From: Lysobacterales bacterium
Lineage (GTDB): Bacteria > Pseudomonadota > Gammaproteobacteria > Xanthomonadales > SZUA-36
Reading direction: 5' to 3'
Assembly (NCBI GenBank): GCA_011524975.1
Contig: WTJD01000174.1
Coordinates: 1-35,738, forward strand
DNA: 35,738 nucleotides
Shown here: positions 6,865 to 15,803 of the stretch, one piece after another
Numbering within the stretch: the stretch's first letter is position 1
Layout: every line of letters starts with the position of its first letter
Position numbers and translations under genes: made by a program
The notes under the pieces: model-generated
Told to the model about the DNA's origin: nothing
The model's database searches: none
What the model saw: only the letters and a program-made list of their open reading frames with translations

Positions 6865-7788
6865 GTGAATAGACCGAAAATTGCCACGCGGAGTTGGTCG
6901 AATGTCCCGATGGCCGGGTTGCGGCTGCTGCTGGCGTGGATGCTGTTGGCGGCACCGCTGGCAAATGCCGCGGGCACGCCCGTGTTCTGGTCGGTGGCCC
7001 GTGACGGCGAGCACCTGGGTTATTTGCTGGGAACCATTCACAGCGAAGACGCCAGGGTACTGGAATACGCCCGGCCTTTTCTCGACAGCTTGACGGGCAG
7101 CCGGGTATTCGCCATGGAGCTTGTGCCCGATCTGCCGACCCTGGCGGCACTGGCTGAGAGGATGCAGTTGCCGGAAGGCCAGGACCTTGAGCAGGTGGTC
7201 GGTCCACTGAGATTCGCGGCCGTTCAGGAGGCCTTGGCCTCCTACGGTGTTCCGGCTGCCCAGGCGCAGCGCATGCAGCCCTGGGCGGCAATGATGACCC
7301 TCAGCGTGCCGCCGCCCAAAACCGGCTTGTTCATGGACTTCTCGCTGTCACTGCGCGCGTCCGGTGCAGGCGTCCGCGTCATCGGCCTGGAGACGCTGGA
7401 TGAGCAGTTGTCGTTTCTCGAGGGTATGAATCTCGATCAGCAGTTGGCCATGCTGGACCACGCGATCGAGGAGTCGGGCAGGACCCAGCAGGTCCATGAC
7501 GAACTGGTGGACATTTACCTGGCCGGAGACCTGCAGGTGTTGCACGACCACGCCATGGAGCAACTGCTGGAGGTTGACGAGGCCGCCCGTGAAACGTTCC
7601 TGCAACAGGGCATTGTGCTGCGCAATCGTCGCATGCTGGAGGCCGCGGAACCGCACCTGCAAGGTGGCGGCGCATTCATCGCCGTCGGGTCATTACACCT
7701 GACGGGCGAGACCGGTCTGCTGAAACTGTTGAGTGACTCCGGTTACGATCTCGAGCCCGCCGGCTGGCCGTTTATCGCGAAACCGTGA
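6865..7788 (+). CDS. exported TraB/GumN family protein
   Basis: The product is a 307-residue member of the TraB/PrgY/GumN (TIKI-like) superfamily. The two family GxxH motifs are present: LLGTIHSED near residue 55 and [18 protein letters not shown] near 275, with conserved acidic residues (FAMELVPD) between. TIKI relatives in animals are metal-dependent proteases; bacterial members are mostly uncharacterised. An N-terminal hydrophobic segment ([19 protein letters not shown]) looks like a signal peptide, so it acts outside the cytoplasm. The GTG at 6865 is supported by GGGAG five bases upstream; an ATG at 6910 is the alternative. The 3' end overlaps that of the convergent hvfX by 17 bases. No functional link to the hvf operon is shown by this overlap. 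Confidence 0.82.
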
Positions 7789-8440
7789 GCTTCAGGCCCA
7801 GCGCGGCCGCGACAGCGAACAGGACGCCACCCCAGATGGGCTCGACCCACACGGTCGCAAGGCCCAAAACGGTGAACACCATCGCCGTGCCAGCGGTGTC
7901 TATGGCCGCCCGGTCCTGTGGGTCGCCACGCTGACTCATCAGCACGAGGACACGGTCGAGACTGATGCGCCCCCCGCCGTGAAACAGCAGAGGCAGCAGC
8001 ATGATGAGGAACAACAACGGCAGCTTGTAATTCCCGGCACCCTTGGCGGTAATCACATACCCTTCCCACAGTGCCTCCAGGCTGTCCCACTCCGCCGGCC
8101 AGTGCACCGCGGCGGTCGCCACCATGGTGATCACGATCAGTGACACGGCAGCGAAACGCGTGAACAGCCCCAACAGCAGGGCGATGGAAAACAGGATCTC
8201 GGCCCAGGTGGCCATGAACCAGTTGATATCGGTTGGCAGCACGTCAAACGGGAACGGAAAGCCCTTTTGCCAGCCAGCCCAGGGGATTTCTCCAAACCAG
8301 TTTTCGCCGCGCAGCTTGGTGATGCCAGCCTCCCAAAACTCCCAAAACAGAATGAGACGCAGGCCCAGTGGCCAGATGTATTCGCCGGCGGTACGCAGGC
8401 GCCGGGTCGTCGAGTCATATCCGTTGAGGACGTTCATCAT
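7772..8440 (-). CDS. hvfX: HvfX-like DoxX family membrane protein
   Basis: The 222-residue product is an inner-membrane DoxX-family protein with about five hydrophobic helices, among them [61 protein letters not shown] and [12 protein letters not shown]. It is the last gene of the hvfABCX operon, and DoxX proteins occupy this position in many copper-RiPP (bufferin) clusters. The exact role is unsettled; supplying reducing power or helping export or maturation are proposals only. The ATG at 8440 has GGGAGT seven bases upstream, and a second ATG follows directly at 8437. The gap to the hvfC stop is 25 bases. A longer frame reaching into hvfC is not credible because the ribosome binding site lies within it. 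Confidence 0.82.
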
Positions 8441-8465
8441 TTGCTTACTCCCATAGGGCGTGACT

Positions 8466-9254
8466 TCATACCGGCCGCGTGCCAAGAATGATCTCTCGCG
8501 TCTGGAAATCCGCCAGGACCTGCTTGCCGCCGCCGATGACCACGTCCGGGTCGGGGTGATTGATCTCCCCGGCCAGGCGCTTCAGTACGTCAAGACCGGT
8601 GAGGGCGCCAGGTTCTTTCAAAATGTGTATCAGCAGCAGGGAAACCGCGTTCAGCTGCATGAAGTTGACCTTGTCCCGACGGTTTCGGTAGACGAGCAGG
8701 TGCGTGGCTTCCCCGGGCGCGTCCTGGGGTTGGAACTCGGGCCGAATCTGGTGAACCGGGTATCGGTAACTCAGCGGCCAGGCCAGGGGCGACAGCACGG
8801 GCTGCTCCGCCAGCAGATCGCCCTCAGGGTTGGCGTCGATGGCGTCCAACTCCTGTTCGTCCAGCGACAGGGCCAACTCCACCCACTCGTAGTGAGCCAG
8901 TTCCAGCATGAATGGCGGGTCCCCCGGTTCCGGCGCGCGTTCGTCCTGCAGGTACTTCAGAAATTCACGTGCGATTTCGGGAAACAGCGGTGTTGTGGAA
9001 CGATGATGGTGGTAGAACGCCCGCGTCAGGCTGTCCCAGGCATCGTCGTCGTGCAGTTTTCTTAATACCGGGAAGTTGCCGGACAGAAAATTGCGGATAT
9101 TGCGGAAGAACAGTCCGCGGTAGATCTCCATGCGGCGGTCTTCGATGCCGCCTGGGGCGGGGTGCTGATCCGGGGCGCGCAGGTGGGCTGCGAATGATTC
9201 GAGCGCCTGGCGCAGGGATTCAGGCGGTTCTTTGTCCCTGGGGTTTCGCATCAT
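8466..9254 (-). CDS. hvfC: HvfC, DUF2063 partner of the RiPP maturase
   Basis: This 262-residue protein has the DUF2063 (HvfC/BufC N-terminal) pattern, seen as [21 protein letters not shown] and [19 protein letters not shown], followed by a second mixed domain with [16 protein letters not shown] and [17 protein letters not shown]. In characterised relatives the DUF2063 protein pairs with the MNIO enzyme and probably recruits or presents the precursor peptide. The coding sequence overlaps the end of hvfB by 35 bases in another frame, which suggests coupled translation and a fixed ratio of the two proteins. Two adjacent ATG codons (9254 and 9251) are possible starts. No metal-binding motif stands out. 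The assignment rests on the family pattern plus operon position, both strong here. Confidence 0.88.
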
Positions 9255-10083
9255 GGTTCTCGCGGCCTGCCTGGGCCGCGTGGATCAATTGGACTTCCGC
9301 CAGCAGGTCAGGGACCGGGGGGAAATTGAAATCGCGCTCCAGCAGCGTGGGAAACACGCCGAAGCAATGGTAGGCCTCATCCAGCAGGGCCCAGACGTTG
9401 TCGATGACACCGGCACCGTGCGTATCGACAATCAGGTCCTCCGCCTCGCTGTAATGACCTGCAATGTGTCCGTAGCAAATGCGCTCACCGGGCAGGCCCT
9501 TGAGGAATTCAACGGGGTCGTAGCCGTGGTTCACGCTGTTGACGTAAATGTTGTTCACATCCAGCAGGAGATCGCAGTCCGCTTCCTCCACCACCGCGTT
9601 GATGAATTCCAATTCGCTCATCTCAGCGCCGGGCGCGGCATAGTAAGACACATTCTCGATGCCGATGCGCCGGTTGAGCAACTCCTGAGTGCGACGAATT
9701 CTTCCCGCGACATAATGCACCGCCTCCTCGGTGAACGGGATGGGCATGAGGTCATACAGGTGCCCGCCGTCGGTGCAATAGCTGAGGTGCTCGGTGTAAA
9801 CGCGCACCTTGTGTGTTTCCAGAAAATGACGGATGCGTCGGATGAAGGTCTCATCCAGGGGCTCCGGCCCGCCAAGTGACAGGGAGAGTCCGTGGCACAC
9901 GAAGGGGAAACGCTCAGTGAATGCCCGCAGCTGTCGGCCGAAACGGCCGCCGACACCGATCCAGTTGTCCGGCGCCACTTCCATGAAGTCGACCTGCGAC
10001 AGGTCGCAATCCTGAAGCGGGCCCAGCAGGGCCCGCCTCAGACCAAGTCCGGCACCTTCGACGAGATAAGCGCTTTGCTTCAT
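9220..10083 (-). CDS. hvfB: HvfB, MNIO-family (DUF692) RiPP maturase
   Basis: This 287-residue protein is a DUF692 multinuclear non-heme iron oxidative enzyme (MNIO), the family of MbnB. In related HvfABC and bufferin systems it uses O2 and a bi- or tri-iron centre to convert cysteines of the precursor into copper-binding heterocycles (oxazolone/thioamide or thiooxazole). Likely metal-site motifs are in order: H64 in [10 protein letters not shown]98-H99 in YTEHLSYC, E143 in IENVSYY, D175 and N178 in DVNNIYVN, H206 and H210 in GHIAGH, D220 and H222 in VDTHG, and E249 in LLERDFNFP. The fold is a TIM barrel in known members. The start is the ATG at 10083, 33 bases after the hvfA stop; a TTG two codons earlier is an alternative. 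No strong Shine-Dalgarno sequence is visible, so translation may be kept below that of hvfA. Confidence 0.93.
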
Positions 10084-10116
10084 GGGCAAAGGGTCGTGGT
10101 GCTCACGGCAACGGTT

Positions 10117-10470
10117 TTACGCGCCGCCGCACTTGCCCTCGCCGCACTTGCCTTCGCCGCACTTGCCTTCTTCACCCTTGTCGTCATCACCGTGGCCTTC
10201 GCCGCACTTGCCCTCGCCACATTTGCCCTCGCCGCACTTGCCTTCTTCACCCTTGTCGTCATCACCGTGGCCTTCGCCGCACTTGCCCTCGCCACATTTG
10301 CCTTCTTCACCCTTGCCGTGATGGGCGGCCAGCATGTAACCCGTGTCGAGATCGGACATCGCGAACGGATTTTCATCAGCGTGGGCAGTTGTGCTGATGG
10401 CCAGTGAGGAAACGAATGCAACGCCAACGGCAGCTGCGACGGGTTTGATGATTTGCTTCTTGATCGCCAT
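10117..10470 (-). CDS. hvfA: HvfA/bufferin precursor with eight EGKCG core motifs
   Basis: This is the 117-residue precursor of a post-translationally modified copper-binding peptide. Residues 1-31 form a signal peptide ending AHA, followed by DENPFAMSDLDTGYMLA, the short conserved stretch typical of HvfA/bufferin-1 precursors. From residue 53 to the end the protein is almost pure repeat: eight EGKCG units with cysteines at 59, 64, 79, 84, 89, 104, 109 and 114, in clusters of two, three and three, split by two GHGDDDKGE spacers. These are the only cysteines. In characterised relatives the EGKCG cysteines are the modified residues that bind copper. An excellent ribosome binding site GGAGG lies nine bases before the ATG. 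It is the first gene of the operon, as expected for a product needed in excess of its enzymes. Modification and metal binding are inferred from family. Confidence 0.93.
   Translation of the reverse strand: MAIKKQIIKPVAAAVGVAFVSSLAISTTAHADENPFAMSDLDTGYMLAAHHGKGEEGKCGEGKCGEGHGDDDKGEEGKCGEGKCGEGKCGEGHGDDDKGEEGKCGEGKCGEGKCGGA
10123..10314 (-). repeat. nested tandem repeats encoding EGKCG clusters
   Basis: The core of hvfA is a two-level DNA repeat. The small unit is 15 bases (one EGKCG). The large unit is 75 bases, encoding KGEEGKCG, two further EGKCG units and then EGHGDDD (residues 73-97). The preceding copy (residues 53-72) is 60 bases and lacks one small unit. The final copy ends in GGA instead of the spacer. 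Such repeats are prone to expansion and contraction by slippage or recombination without loss of frame. Confidence 0.9.
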
Positions 10471-10739: not shown

Positions 10740-11372
10740 TCAAACCCGTTTTTTTCCGTGGCGGCAAAGATCTCGCACAATGCACTCATCGCAATGGGGC
10801 TTGCGGGCCGTGCAAACGTAGCGACCATGCAGAATCAGCCAGTGATGGGCATCTTTCAGAAAGGGTTCCGGGACGTTCTTCAGCAGCTTTCTCTCCACGG
10901 CCAGCGGCGTTTTACCGGGCGCCAGGCCTGTTCGGTTCGAAACTCTGAAGATATGGGTGTCAACCGCGATGGTGGGTTCGCCAAATGCAGTATTGAGTAC
11001 GACATTGGCGGTTTTGCGCCCCACGCCAGGGAGTGCCTCCAGCGCTTCTCTCTCTCGCGGCACCTCTCCGTCGTGCTTGTCGAGCAGGATGCGGCAGGTC
11101 TTGATGATATTGGCTGCCTTGGTGTTGAACAGGCCAATGGTGCGAACGTAATCGCGCAGCGTGTCCTCGCCCATGTCGAAAATGGCCTGTGGCGTATTGG
11201 CCACGGGGTACAGGCGCCGGGTCGCCCGGTTCACGCCGACGTCGGTGGCTTGTGCTGAGAGGATGACCGCCACCAGCAACTCGAAGGGTGAGTCATATTC
11301 GAGTTCCGTCGTCGGCCGCGGATTGTTGTCCCGCAGCCGCTGAAAAAACGCCTGTCGATCGGCCAGGTTCAA
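10740..11372 (-). CDS. nth: endonuclease III (DNA glycosylase/AP lyase)
   Basis: Endonuclease III removes oxidised pyrimidines from DNA and cuts the strand at the abasic site. The 210-residue protein matches the E. coli enzyme in length and position: the helix-hairpin-helix LPGVGRKTANVVL with catalytic K120, D138 in VDTHIFR, and the C-terminal [4Fe-4S] loop with C187, C194, C197 and C203. The start is a TTG at 11372 that overlaps the rsxE stop as TTGA, so translation is probably coupled to the rsx operon. The rsxABCDGE-nth order is the same as in E. coli. The last residues GKKRV are basic, which may help DNA contact. Confidence 0.97.
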   Translation of the reverse strand: MNLADRQAFFQRLRDNNPRPTTELEYDSPFELLVAVILSAQATDVGVNRATRRLYPVANTPQAIFDMGEDTLRDYVRTIGLFNTKAANIIKTCRILLDKHDGEVPREREALEALPGVGRKTANVVLNTAFGEPTIAVDTHIFRVSNRTGLAPGKTPLAVERKLLKNVPEPFLKDAHHWLILHGRYVCTARKPHCDECIVRDLCRHGKKRV

Positions 11373-12052
11373 GCGGCCCCCAGCGCCTTGTTCAAGACGG
11401 TCGACCTACGCGAACGGCGCGTCTGCAGCCAATTGCGCGCGGCCACCAGCAGGCCCAGCCCAATAAAGGCGCCCGGCGGGAGAATGGCCAGGAGGAAGCC
11501 CTCGTAATGGGGCAGGACGGTCAGTTCCAGTGCGCGACCGGCTTCGCCAAACATGAGATGGGCTTGTGACAGCAGCGTCCCACGCCCGAGCAGTTCACGC
11601 AGGGCTCCGAGCAGCACCAGGGTAAGGCAGAATCCCAGTCCGGTGGCCAGGCCGTCAACCATGGCGGCCAGCGGGTGATGCCGGGACGCAAAGGCTTCGG
11701 CCCGGCCGATAATGGCGCAGTTGGTCACAATCAGAGGTATGAAGATGCCGAGCACGCGATACAGGTCGTGCACAAACGCCTGCATGAGCAACTGGATGAC
11801 CGTGACCACAGAGGCGATGATCAGCACAAAGGCCGGAATGCGAATCTCCGGACGCAGCAGGCCGCGCAGCCATGAGACGGACAGGTTGGAAGCAACCAGG
11901 GTCAGCAGGGTCGCAAGACCAAGGCCCAGGCCGTTGACCACCGTGCCGGTCACCGCCAGCAGCGGGCACAGGCCGAGCAGCACCACGAGCCCGGTATTCT
12001 GGTGCCAGAGACCGTCCATGAAAACCTGCTTTAAACGGGGGCGTTCAGTCAT
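11369..12052 (-). CDS. rsxE: Rsx/Rnf complex subunit E
   Basis: RsxE (RnfE) is an integral inner-membrane subunit of the Rnf-type electron-transfer complex. The 227-residue product has about six membrane helices and the conserved segments TGLVVLLGLCPLLAVT, YRVLGIFIPLIVTNCAIIGRAEAFAS and GTLLSQAHLMFG. The cysteines in GLCPLLA and TNCAII correspond to residues that, in Rnf structures, hold an iron-sulphur cluster in the membrane between RnfA and RnfE. The ATG at 12052 lies inside the end of rsxG (eight-base overlap). A longer open frame upstream is only a shadow of rsxG. The C-terminus is a basic, cytoplasmic tail (RRSRRS). Confidence 0.95.
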   Translation of the reverse strand: MTERPRLKQVFMDGLWHQNTGLVVLLGLCPLLAVTGTVVNGLGLGLATLLTLVASNLSVSWLRGLLRPEIRIPAFVLIIASVVTVIQLLMQAFVHDLYRVLGIFIPLIVTNCAIIGRAEAFASRHHPLAAMVDGLATGLGFCLTLVLLGALRELLGRGTLLSQAHLMFGEAGRALELTVLPHYEGFLLAILPPGAFIGLGLLVAARNWLQTRRSRRSTVLNKALGAA

Positions 12053-12698
12053 CGCGTTTCTGCTCGTTGCGCCGGTACAGGGCATCCCTGTTGGCCTGAT
12101 GATATTCCAAGGCGCGCTGTACTGCTTCAACCACGGCCCGGGGCGTGATCGTGGCGCCAGTGAACTGGTCGAAGACGCCGCCGTCTCGCGTGACACCCCA
12201 GTGCTCCGGTTCAGGGTCTTCCAGTGAGCGGCCTGTGAACGCCAGTATCCAGTCACTGCGTTCCGCTTCGATAGGGTCTCCCAATCCTGGCGTTTCCCTG
12301 TGCGATACCACCCGCACGCCGCTGATGCGGCCGTCGGCCAGGATACTGGTGAGAAGTTGGATGTCGCCGTTGTAACCATCCGGCGCTACATGGTCGAAAA
12401 CAACCGCCACGGGCTGCTCGCCCTTGCGGGCGCGGTACACGCGCACAGCCCCATCATTTCGAGAAAGGCTGTCGTGCCTGAGGGTCAGGGTATCTCCCAG
12501 CGGGTCGTTGTCGTATGCGCCTTCCGGTAATACCCGCCCCAGTTGCCTGATGAGCGCCTGGCGTTCCTGTTCCGCGATCCGCTCCCGCGTCAATTCGTTG
12601 ACCGCTGCCAACAGCCCCGTTCCGAGAATGGCGATCAGCGCAAGTAAGCCTGCGCTGGACAAGACCTGATGTGCCACCCCGGTGGTTTTCCCGCTCAT
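12045..12698 (-). CDS. rsxG: Rsx/Rnf complex subunit G, covalent flavoprotein
   Basis: RsxG carries a covalently bound FMN on the periplasmic side of the complex. The 217-residue protein has one N-terminal membrane helix (LLALIAILGTGLLAAV) and an FMN-binding domain with the attachment motif TGAT, T183 being the expected flavin-linked threonine. HRETPGLGDPIE is a further conserved family segment. The ATG at 12698 overlaps the rsxD stop as ATGA. Attachment of FMN normally needs an ApbE flavin transferase; no apbE is in this window, so it would have to be elsewhere. Confidence 0.95.
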   Translation of the reverse strand: MSGKTTGVAHQVLSSAGLLALIAILGTGLLAAVNELTRERIAEQERQALIRQLGRVLPEGAYDNDPLGDTLTLRHDSLSRNDGAVRVYRARKGEQPVAVVFDHVAPDGYNGDIQLLTSILADGRISGVRVVSHRETPGLGDPIEAERSDWILAFTGRSLEDPEPEHWGVTRDGGVFDQFTGATITPRAVVEAVQRALEYHQANRDALYRRNEQKRDD

Positions 12699-13729
12699 GT
12701 CCCGTACGCCCTGGGCCGTGTATACCGGTCGATCAAGGGCGCCGCCATGTTCATCAGCAGCACGGCGAATGCGACACCGTCCGGGTAGCCGCCCCACTGG
12801 CGAATGACCAGGGTGATCAGGCCGACACCCAGGCCAAACCACAGCCTGCCGAGGTTGCTGGTGCAACCCGATACCGGGTCGGTGGCGATGAAGAAGGCGC
12901 CCAGCATCAGCGCGCCGGAAAAAAGGTGTTGCGCGGGAGAGAGGTGCGTCACCGGGTCCAACAGCCAGAAGGGCAGGGTGACGGCAGCCACGACGCCCAG
13001 CGTGGATACGGGAACCTGCCAGGTGATGATTCTCCGCGCGAGCAGGTAAAGCCCGCCCGCCAGGTATGCGGCTGCCACCCACTCCCATCCCATCCCGCCG
13101 AACTGGCCAAATACAGGCGACTGCATGATCTCCGGCAGGGATTCGCCGGCATGCATGCCGGTTTTCAGGGTATCGAGCGGGGTCGCCTGGGTGATGCTGT
13201 CCCAGCTCACACCCTCCGGCAGCGCGCCGTGCAAGATCGCCGCCAGCGTCTCGTTGAAGCTCAGCGAGTGCGTTGAAAGATCGGCCGGGGCCTGCCACCG
13301 GGTCAGGTATTTGGGGAAACTGATGAGAACGACCACGTAGCCGATCATGGCCGGGTTGAACACGTTCTGGCCCAGGCCGCCGTACAGGTGCTTGGCAACA
13401 ACGATGGCCATCAGCATGGCCACGGCCGAGATCCACCAGGGTGCCAGCGGCGGTATACACAAGGCGAACAGCACGGCCGTGACGACGGCTGAACCGTCAC
13501 CCAGAAAGCGCGCAATGCTGCGCTCACGCATGCGCAGCATCAACGCCTCAAAGCCCAGCGCGAAGCCGGTCGCCAGCGCGATTTGCACCAGCACGCCGGG
13601 GCCGAAGAACACGATTTGCAGCAGGATGCCGGGAATCAGCGCGTATAACACCTGGCGCATCACCTGGCCGACGGTCGCCGTCGACGGGATGTGTGGCGCC
13701 TGGCTGGTTTTGAATGCCTGTCGCTTCAC
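12695..13729 (-). CDS. rsxD: Rsx/Rnf complex subunit D
   Basis: RsxD is a polytopic inner-membrane subunit with a covalent FMN. The 344-residue protein has about ten hydrophobic helices and the conserved segments YGGLGQNVFNPAMIGY, TQATPLDTLKTG and GAFFIATDPVSG. T183 in the ATPLD motif is the likely flavin-linked residue by comparison with characterised RnfD. The start is a GTG at 13729 overlapping the rsxC stop (GTGA). AGGAG sits directly before the GTG, which is closer than normal; no better start is available, so coupled translation is likely. Confidence 0.95.
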   Translation of the reverse strand: MKRQAFKTSQAPHIPSTATVGQVMRQVLYALIPGILLQIVFFGPGVLVQIALATGFALGFEALMLRMRERSIARFLGDGSAVVTAVLFALCIPPLAPWWISAVAMLMAIVVAKHLYGGLGQNVFNPAMIGYVVVLISFPKYLTRWQAPADLSTHSLSFNETLAAILHGALPEGVSWDSITQATPLDTLKTGMHAGESLPEIMQSPVFGQFGGMGWEWVAAAYLAGGLYLLARRIITWQVPVSTLGVVAAVTLPFWLLDPVTHLSPAQHLFSGALMLGAFFIATDPVSGCTSNLGRLWFGLGVGLITLVIRQWGGYPDGVAFAVLLMNMAAPLIDRYTRPRAYGT

Positions 13730-15252
13730 CTCCTGACCTCCTCGTTGGGGACAGGCGTCTTCTTTTTCGCGGCGCTCCGCTCCCGCAATGCCTTTTTCTT
13801 GGCCGCCAGGCGCTCACGTTTTTCCTGTTTCTGCCGTTCCAGCCGTGCTGCGCGGGCATCAAATCGTTCTCGCGCGTGGTCGGCCGCGGCGCGTTCCCGA
13901 GCCTGCGCTTTGAGTTGCCCCTTGCCATGTCTGAACCAGGCCGCGAGTGGGATATGGCTGGGGCAGACAAAATCGCAGCAGCCGCACTCAATACAGGCGC
14001 GCAGGTGGTGGTCCGCGGCGGCCTCCCATTGCCCGGTGCGAACCTGCCACTGCAACTGCTGTGGCAGCAGGCCGGCCGGGCAGACGCGGGCACATTCCCC
14101 ACAGCGTATGCAGGGCATTTCCGGTTGCGGGGCTCTCAGGTCGTCGGCTGAAAGCACCAGCAGGCAATTGCTGGCCTTAACCACGGGCTCGCTGTCCGAT
14201 CGCAGGCTGAACCCCATCATCGGCCCCCCGACCACCAGGCGGTCCGCGTCGTCGCGGTAACCGCCGCAGTGATGCACCAGGTGCGATACCGGGGTGCCAA
14301 TCAGCGCCAGCAGATTGCGTGGCTCAGCAACGCCATGCCCCGTTACCGTCACGTAACGCTCGATCAGCGGTCGTCCGCGGATGACGGCGTCGGCCACCGC
14401 GGCGGCGGTGCCGACATTCTGCACCAGGATGCCCAGGTCGGCCGGAAGTCCGTCCGCCGGCACTTCCTGTCCGGTCAGTACCTGGATCAGCTGTCTTTCA
14501 CCACCCTCGGGATAGATGGCAGGCACTTTGACCAGTTCGATGTCCGTGGCCTCGCCGACGGCCTGCTGCAGGGCGTCGAATACGGCGCCCATCTGGTCTT
14601 CGATGGCCAGGATGACGTGCTCCGCGCCACTGGCCCGCTGCAGCACCCTGGCGCCGTCGATGACCCGGTGGGGCTCCTCCCGCATCAGCATCTCGTCGCA
14701 GCTGATATAGGGCTCGCATTCAGCGCCGTTGAGCAGCAGCGTCCGGGTACCCCGTACTCGGCCAAGCGACGCTTTTTGATGGGTGGGGAAGACGGCTCCA
14801 CCCAGGCCGACCACGCCCGCTGCGCACAGGGCGTCGAGCAGGTCCCGGGGTTCGCGGGTCTGCCAGTCCGTGACGGGTGACGGTTCACACCAGCGGTCCT
14901 GACCGTCCGGTTCAATCACGACGCACGGTCCCGACCGGCCGGAAGGATGGCTCATGGGTCGATGCTCAATGGCGCGGACGGTTCCCGACGTGGGCGCGTG
15001 CACGCTCACGCCGCCGCTGCAGTCCACCTCGCCCAGGCGCTGGCCTTTAAGCACCCGGTCGCCAGCCTGGACGAGCGCCTGCGCGGGCAGACCAAGGTGT
15101 TGTTGCAGGGGCACGATCAGGACGTCAGGCAGAACCGGGCGCTCCACAGGCCGCGCACAGGAAACCTGTTTGTGGTGACGCAGCCGCAGGCCGCCGCGCA
15201 AGCGGTGCAAAAACCGCCCCCCGGGCGTGCCGGCATCGTGAGGAACGCTCAT
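13726..15252 (-). CDS. rsxC: Rsx/Rnf complex subunit C, iron-sulphur flavoprotein
   Basis: RsxC is the peripheral, cytoplasmic subunit that exchanges electrons with NADH. The 508-residue product has the RnfC N-terminal barrel ([20 protein letters not shown]), an NADH/FMN-binding Complex1_51K-like domain ([27 protein letters not shown]) and two [4Fe-4S] motifs, [12 protein letters not shown] and [12 protein letters not shown]. The tail is only a short Lys/Arg/Ala stretch, unlike the long repeated extension of E. coli RsxC. The ATG at 15252 has GGAGG six bases upstream and overlaps the rsxB stop as ATGA. The frame runs further upstream, but only as a shadow of rsxB. Confidence 0.95.
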
Positions 15253-15803
15253 TGCACACCTCCGGCGGCCGGTCGGCCGGGTTCCGGCCAGGCCCAGACC
15301 GTACCGTCCTGATCCGGGATGACCATTGCGATACAGTCCACGGGGCAGGGGGGCAGACACAGGTCGCAGCCCGTGCATTCCTGCTCGATCACGGTATGCA
15401 TCAGCTTGGCCGCGCCGACGATGGCGTCGACAGGACAGGCCTGTATACACAGCGTGCAGCCGATACAGGCCTGTTCGTCGATCACAGCCACCGTGGTGGG
15501 TTGTTCTTCGCCATTTTCCGGGTTCAATGGCTTTGGCTCACGGCCGAGCAGGTCCGCCAAGGCGCGAATGCCGGCCTCACCTCCGGGTGGGCACTGGTTG
15601 ATGTCCGCCTCATCGCTGGCGATGGCTTCCGCATAGGGCCGGCAGCCCGGGTATCCGCATTGACCGCATTGCGTCTGGGGCAAAATCGCGTCGATCTGAT
15701 CGATCACCGGGTCGGACTCGACCCGGAAACGGACCGCGGCCCAGCCCAGCCCCAGGCCGATTAGCAAGCCCAATGCCAGCAATGTAACAACGGCGATGAG
15801 CAT
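15249..15803 (-). CDS. rsxB: Rsx/Rnf complex subunit B, ferredoxin-like
   Basis: RsxB is the polyferredoxin subunit that receives electrons on the cytoplasmic face of the membrane. The 184-residue protein has an N-terminal membrane helix ([19 protein letters not shown]), a [4Fe-4S] domain with CGQCGYPGC and a later cysteine in NQCPPGG, and two ferredoxin motifs [12 protein letters not shown] and [12 protein letters not shown]. Length and motif spacing are normal. The ATG at 15803 follows the rsxA stop by a single base. Confidence 0.97.

Follow-up and report, generated by a model that had tools for sequence, protein, structure and literature searches.

The window, the whole stretch of 35,738 nucleotides analyzed here (contig WTJD01000174.1 of a Lysobacterales bacterium), contains a complete hvfA-B-C-X operon on the minus strand. 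The first gene, hvfA (10117..10470), encodes an oxazolin/captophorin-type RiPP precursor of 117 residues. Its 117 codons run from 10470 down to 10117 and the protein ends with HHGKGE, a repetitive core and GA. The plus-strand frame across 10117-10314 is an Ala/Leu-rich ORF and was rejected as the gene. HvfA scored 58.8 bits against the family domain model NCBIfam NF050137 (cut-off 19.5) and 41.2 bits against the equivalog model NF050188, below its cut-off of 95. By these scores it is a member of the family and not a narrow ortholog of the H. influenzae type. Searches with the precursor against Pfam and against the sequences of solved structures gave no match. The N-terminus is signal-like (MAIKKQIIKPVAAAVGVAFVSSLAISTTAHA) and is followed by a conserved DENPF...DTGYMLA segment. 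Alignment with homologues placed a putative Sec signal, which may serve as the leader, at residues 1-31 (10378..10470, minus strand), with probable cleavage after Ala31 (STTAHA/DENPF). In the same alignment the NPF...GY segment that follows the signal is conserved.

The three other genes follow in order on the same strand, and each product scored above its NCBIfam cut-off. The hvfB gene (9220..10083) encodes an MNIO (DUF692) maturase related to 3BWW (NF003818, 440.8 bits, cut-off 360); ATG at 10083 is favored as its start over TTG at 10089. By its sequence HvfB belongs with the Lys-Cys group of MNIOs (FonB/HvfB). The marks of this group are an N-terminal Arg-Arg, here R16 and R17, and a C-terminal Asp-Phe with the catalytic Asp, here D251 and F252. 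These residues are kept in 143-151 of the 151 aligned HvfB proteins. The hvfC gene (8466..9254) overlaps the end of hvfB and encodes a partner protein with a DUF2063 domain and an RRE (NF050145, 310.2 bits, cut-off 142; PF09836, PF22106). HvfC matches 3DEE in both sequence and fold (Z 16.5). In the fold search with its model, 3DEE and TglI matched over most of the chain and MbnC more weakly (Z 5.5-6.7), a result that leaves the position of the substrate unindicated. The hvfX gene (7772..8485) encodes a DoxX-family membrane protein (NF050144, 130.1 bits, cut-off 80; PF07681) and starts at TTG 8485 or ATG 8440.

Two related systems were considered and rejected. The system does not qualify as a bufferin (BufA/BufB): with 252.1 bits against the BufB model, below the cut-off of 310, HvfB is not a BufB, and the precursor has no Pfam match. 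A methanobactin (MbnA/B/C) identity failed at the MbnB model TIGR04159 (40 bits, cut-off 325). Several relatives contain a second MNIO with 35-40% identity, possibly of the bufferin type (G011:C13, G039:C1, G054:C1, G055:C55, G060:C115 and others). The genome of the window contains a single MNIO. A scan for promoters and terminators 5' of hvfA found one weak sigma-70-like site (10664-10636), barely above shuffled sequences. Directly upstream of the operon are nth (endonuclease III) and RnfE/G/D/C-type genes (10740-15450, minus strand). A gene for a TraB/PrgY/GumN-family protein (6865-7788, plus strand) is convergent with hvfX.

The core of HvfA is (EGKCG)2-EGHGDDDKGE-(EGKCG)3-EGHGDDDKGE-(EGKCG)3-GA. 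A sequence-only reading had described eight EGKCG motifs in blocks of two, three and three, and the pentamers are indeed found at residues 56, 61, 76, 81, 86, 101, 106 and 111. On the minus strand, cluster 1 (residues 56-65) is encoded by 10276..10305, cluster 2 (residues 76-90) by 10201..10245 and cluster 3 (residues 101-115) by 10126..10170. The two spacers between them are present and identical as that reading had proposed, although each is the 10-mer EGHGDDDKGE in register with the pentamers and not the 9-mer GHGDDDKGE. Spacer 1 (residues 66-75, 10246..10275) carries a net charge of -4. Spacer 2 (residues 91-100, 10171..10200) is its exact copy.

Tandem Repeats Finder detected a 75-bp tandem repeat of 2.4 copies with 96% matches at 10125..10305. 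The corresponding protein unit is 25 residues long and comprises three pentamers and one spacer. A comparison at a lag of 75 bp showed all 30 bases of the two spacers to be identical. One spacer with its three pentamers differs from the copy in three codons, and cluster 1 differs from its copy in one. All four differences are synonymous, as are the codon differences among all eight pentamers. The identical spacers therefore reflect a recent duplication in which the protein sequence was kept. The 2-3-3 layout arose by tandem duplication of one 75-bp unit, and cluster 1 has only two pentamers because the array starts part-way through the unit. This description of the array as 2.4 copies of one unit is new here. 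The peptide had been pictured as a modular chain of three metal-binding cassettes. Modifiable cassettes are well founded, and were published earlier for other family members; three independent modules are not, as the array is one duplicated DNA unit.

The repeats are not a chance pattern, given the family score, the pattern statistics and the position of hvfA at the head of an hvfBCX operon. A degenerate pattern of the spacer and two pentamers was expected to match 0 times in the window and matched twice. The rest of the 3.24 Mb genome contains no second copy of the double motif KCGEGKCG. The locus is an ordinary member of the known oxazolin/captophorin family, and its novelty as a locus is low.

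The chemistry of the family has been established for other members. The Cys of EGKCG is converted to 5-thiooxazole by HvfBC and FonBC, and the products bind copper (PMC13419390, PMC12668002). The group was first described as oxazolone/thioamide and the assignment was revised later. In these homologues the Sec signal serves as the leader (PMC13419390, PMC12668002), and papers on homologues also report that the modification depends on HvfC. The oxazolin of Haemophilus influenzae (HvfA/HvfB/HvfC/HvfX, PMC13419390) resembles the protein studied here in its signal-like N-terminus, its EGKCG repeats near the C-terminus and its single operon with an MNIO, a DUF2063/RRE partner and a DoxX gene. It differs in having three AEGKCGEGKCG units with six Cys, all modified, whereas the window encodes eight Cys in a 2-3-3 arrangement with acidic, His-bearing spacers of 10 residues. 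Fontiphorin of Fontimonas thermophila (FonA/FonB/FonC, PMC12668002, PMC13097082) shares the clustered EGKCG motifs, and its MNIO likewise carries the Arg-Arg and Asp-Phe pairs. Its clusters are arranged 2-3-2, and its gene cluster is minimal, lacking DoxX. All seven of its Cys are converted to 5-thiooxazole and up to four Cu are bound (PMC12668002). Digestion of fontiphorin with LysC gave fragments with 2, 3 and 2 modified Cys (PMC12668002), so clustered cassettes with spacers are already published. On a short substrate FonBC needed two repeats for activity, and Ala scans of FonA found no single essential residue before the core (PMC12668002). Microbulbifer MmrA (PMC12538549), which also yields a copper-binding product, has three two-Cys EGKCG cassettes (2-2-2), and the number of Cys ranges from five to eight across strains. 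Unlike the acidic spacers of the window, the segments between its cassettes are Lys-rich (KKK), and the Microbulbifer loci that we retrieved likewise have Lys-rich spacers. Bufferins 1 and 2 (BufA/BufB/BufC) share the Sec-signal precursor, the MNIO with a DUF2063 partner, thiooxazoles and copper, but have DUF2282 or 6/12-Cys precursors instead of EGKCG repeats. Family members reach up to 58 Cys (PMC12452194).

We extracted 84 non-redundant precursors from a collection of named genomes and from relatives. Features of the leader are conserved among them and the cores are not. The number of Cys ranges from 2 to 17 and is most commonly 8. Among 403 clusters, 176 contain one motif, 203 two and 20 three. 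Spacers are 4-49 residues long and follow no 5-residue register except for a mode at 5. The sequence-only reading, which is partly supported overall, had held that its modular-cassette idea would be weak if close homologues lacked the spacers, and on this point the outcome is divided. Some spacer separates the Cys clusters in nearly all 84 precursors. The exact pattern EGHGDDDKGE is confined to its own genome; it is absent from the other 368 of the 369 genomes of the class that were scanned. The proposal that the spacers act as flexible hinges is compatible with these free lengths and with a predicted disordered core in HvfA (AlphaFold2 with 29 sequences, pLDDT about 40, pTM 0.13).

The charge of the core is matched by an opposite charge on HvfC. 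In a first comparison, core charge correlated negatively with HvfC charge (rho -0.66) and not with HvfB charge. With full-length HvfC, independent contrasts on the HvfB tree gave r -0.32. When the columns of HvfC were scanned in the discovery set, positions 55 and 54 came out on top and 47 and 59 further down; the scattered positions 74, 206 and 216 scored too. Positions 47, 54, 55 and 59, clustered in one stretch, were fixed before replication. Replication loci came from 370 genomes of the class and from relatives and were filtered against the discovery set. Of 71 loci kept, two with a different precursor type were removed, leaving 69, or 147 operons together with the 78 of the discovery set. 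The charge sum of the four positions correlated with core charge under phylogenetic contrasts with r=-0.67 in the discovery set (n=78), from which the positions had been chosen partly for their clustering, and with r=-0.60 (p=7e-8) in the replication set (n=69), which comes from the same class. Random sets of four HvfC columns performed as well in 2 of 5000 draws. Whole-HvfB charge was rejected as the matched partner, with r=0.01 under contrasts in all data. HvfX was rejected too, having shown no correlation in a set of n = 28 with incomplete ORFs.

Once the Lys fraction of the pentamers is controlled for, spacer charge still predicts the charge of the HvfC patch (t=-7.9), and the match holds among 88 precursors whose motifs are all Lys/Arg (contrasts, r=-0.37, p=4.5e-4). 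Independent sister pairs that differ in core charge by at least 0.12 per residue changed in opposite directions in 16 cases and in the same direction in 3, with 10 ties. Cores below -0.1 per residue go with a mean patch charge of +0.71, and those at or above 0.05 with one of -2.0. The window is in line with this trend; its HvfC has G47, R54, N55 and G59 and its core carries -0.13 per residue. In the AlphaFold2 model of HvfC (mean pLDDT 94.9) all four positions are located on helix 2, residues 39-60, encoded by 9075..9140 on the minus strand.

We infer from this covariation that the precursor and helix 2 may be in physical contact. In MbnBC, the leader-binding domain of the partner and the enzyme jointly form a cavity that holds the core (PMC8888699), and by analogy a contact of HvfC with the core is plausible. 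The last 25 residues of the leader also correlate with the HvfC patch (contrasts, r=-0.36), so the contact might be made at the junction of leader and core instead of at the spacers. The covariation is correlational; exposed faces of a helix are also those with freedom to vary, and errors in the tree or ecological factors outside the data could add to it. Ties in about a third of the sister pairs weigh against this reading, as do the published Ala scans of FonA and the good scores of the scattered HvfC columns. The sequence data suggest that the spacers are charge-matched handling segments that HvfC reads during iterative modification, a role absent from the sequence-only reading. A more specific proposal, to which we give somewhat less than even odds, is that spacer charge is part of an enzyme-handling code that is read by the helix 2 surface at positions 47, 54, 55 and 59, a surface that would have switched sign repeatedly along with the substrate. 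HvfC would then serve as an electrostatic track for iterative modification, one cassette after another, and not merely as a leader-binding RRE.

The best explanation of the whole, with a probability of roughly 0.7, is a copper-binding precursor with a 2-3-3 core formed by duplication and flexible spacers that are charge-matched to HvfC. In the cytoplasm, the HvfB-HvfC complex would recognize the Sec-signal leader of HvfA and turn the EGKCG cysteines, as many as eight, into 5-thiooxazoles. Modification of all eight is expected by analogy. The acidic spacers would be flexible segments and not dedicated metal sites, and would touch one face of HvfC helix 2 while the chain passes the active site cassette by cassette. 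After export the modified peptide, a flexible chain without a fold, would bind Cu(I), most likely several ions. The homologues are the source for both copper binding and the count of modified Cys. The mature product is best read as a Cu(I) chelator that has multiple sites and is disordered.

The strongest competing explanation, which we consider rather unlikely, is that unequal crossing-over or slippage in a repetitive gene produced the spacers as neutral by-products. Any flexible sequence would serve, and the charge trend would be an indirect effect of lineage or habitat. The recent duplication of the 75-bp unit with its identical spacers fits this explanation, as do the hypervariable sequence and length of the spacers among the 84 precursors and the frequent acidic cores among Wenzhouxiangella records. 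Against it, the charge match holds under phylogenetic contrasts, in the replication set, against random columns and in sister pairs, and whole-HvfB charge shows no trend under contrasts. Adaptation of the halophilic or acidic-proteome kind was likewise discarded as a source of the acidic spacers. Acidity across the proteome would render HvfC more acidic as well, and the opposite sign is seen.

The sequence-only reading had also offered the His and Asp residues of the spacers as possible extra metal ligands. Each cassette would then be a composite site for copper or another metal. Both spacers of the window contain one His and three Asp, an HH pair precedes the core here and in the genus-mate L004, and a spacer of Wenzhouxiangella L077 contains EHHDDD. 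Conservation lends extra His ligands no support, however. His accounts for 1.3% of spacer residues and occurs in the spacers of 20 of the 84 precursors, leaving 64 with none, and many homologues have Lys-rich spacers. L004, the one genus-mate searched, has the spacers ESDDDSKGE and DKSDDDKGE, in which by sequence the acidity is retained and the His is not. In homologues the copper is bound by the thiooxazole groups (PMC12668002). With spacers so variable in length and sequence, so few His in them and the exact spacer confined to its own genome among those scanned, conserved His ligands appear unlikely. Composite metal sites are less probable still than neutral spacers, a small probability being left for His ligation in this single peptide. 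A folded repeat protein with Cys inside and spacers as structural turns, modeled by AlphaFold2 as a beta-helix for a mid-size family member with 17-residue repeats (PMC12452194), is very improbable here, as the model of HvfA is disordered through the core, the repeat unit is 25 residues and the Cys-to-Cys gaps across spacers (9 to 54 in the 84 precursors) keep no fixed register.

The charge match with HvfC, in contrast to the cassettes, which were already known, is a testable novelty and the item most worth following up. We found no earlier report of it in searches of open-access papers. Within Pseudomonadota, the EGKCG captophorins form a large group of RiPPs. For RREs associated with DUF2063, a survey from 2025 reported no specific recognition motif (PMC12710340), and the threading of a precursor with many Cys has been posed as a question (PMC12452194). 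A replicated, sign-reversing match between spacers and an HvfC helix offers a specific, testable answer to how the DUF2063 partner recognizes its substrate, and possibly a rule for pairing precursors with maturases. The HvfA of the window, whose eight sites share one sequence and whose two acidic spacers are the same, is a tidy test substrate.

The survey also revealed variation in the motifs themselves. EF-hand-like DxDGDG segments are located inside the EGKCG core at nine loci (L071, L076, L208, L223, L224, L226, L239, L259 and L274), with EGKCG on both sides in, for example, L071, L076 and L208. Such segments have been described as fused at the C-terminus of precursors (PMC12452194). Pentamers with an acidic third residue, EGECG or EGDCG, are found in L273 and L277, where hvfA is upstream of hvfB and HvfB keeps the Arg-Arg and Asp-Phe residues; Glu at this position was badly tolerated by FonBC in vitro (PMC12668002). 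Ser replaces Lys (EGSCG) in many precursors, including L018/L037, L021, L025, L026 and L096, and occupies the third position in 135 of about 1060 [ED]GxCG motifs. The EGSCG arrays include 12 single-motif cassettes in a row in L018 and eight motifs in one cluster in L021.
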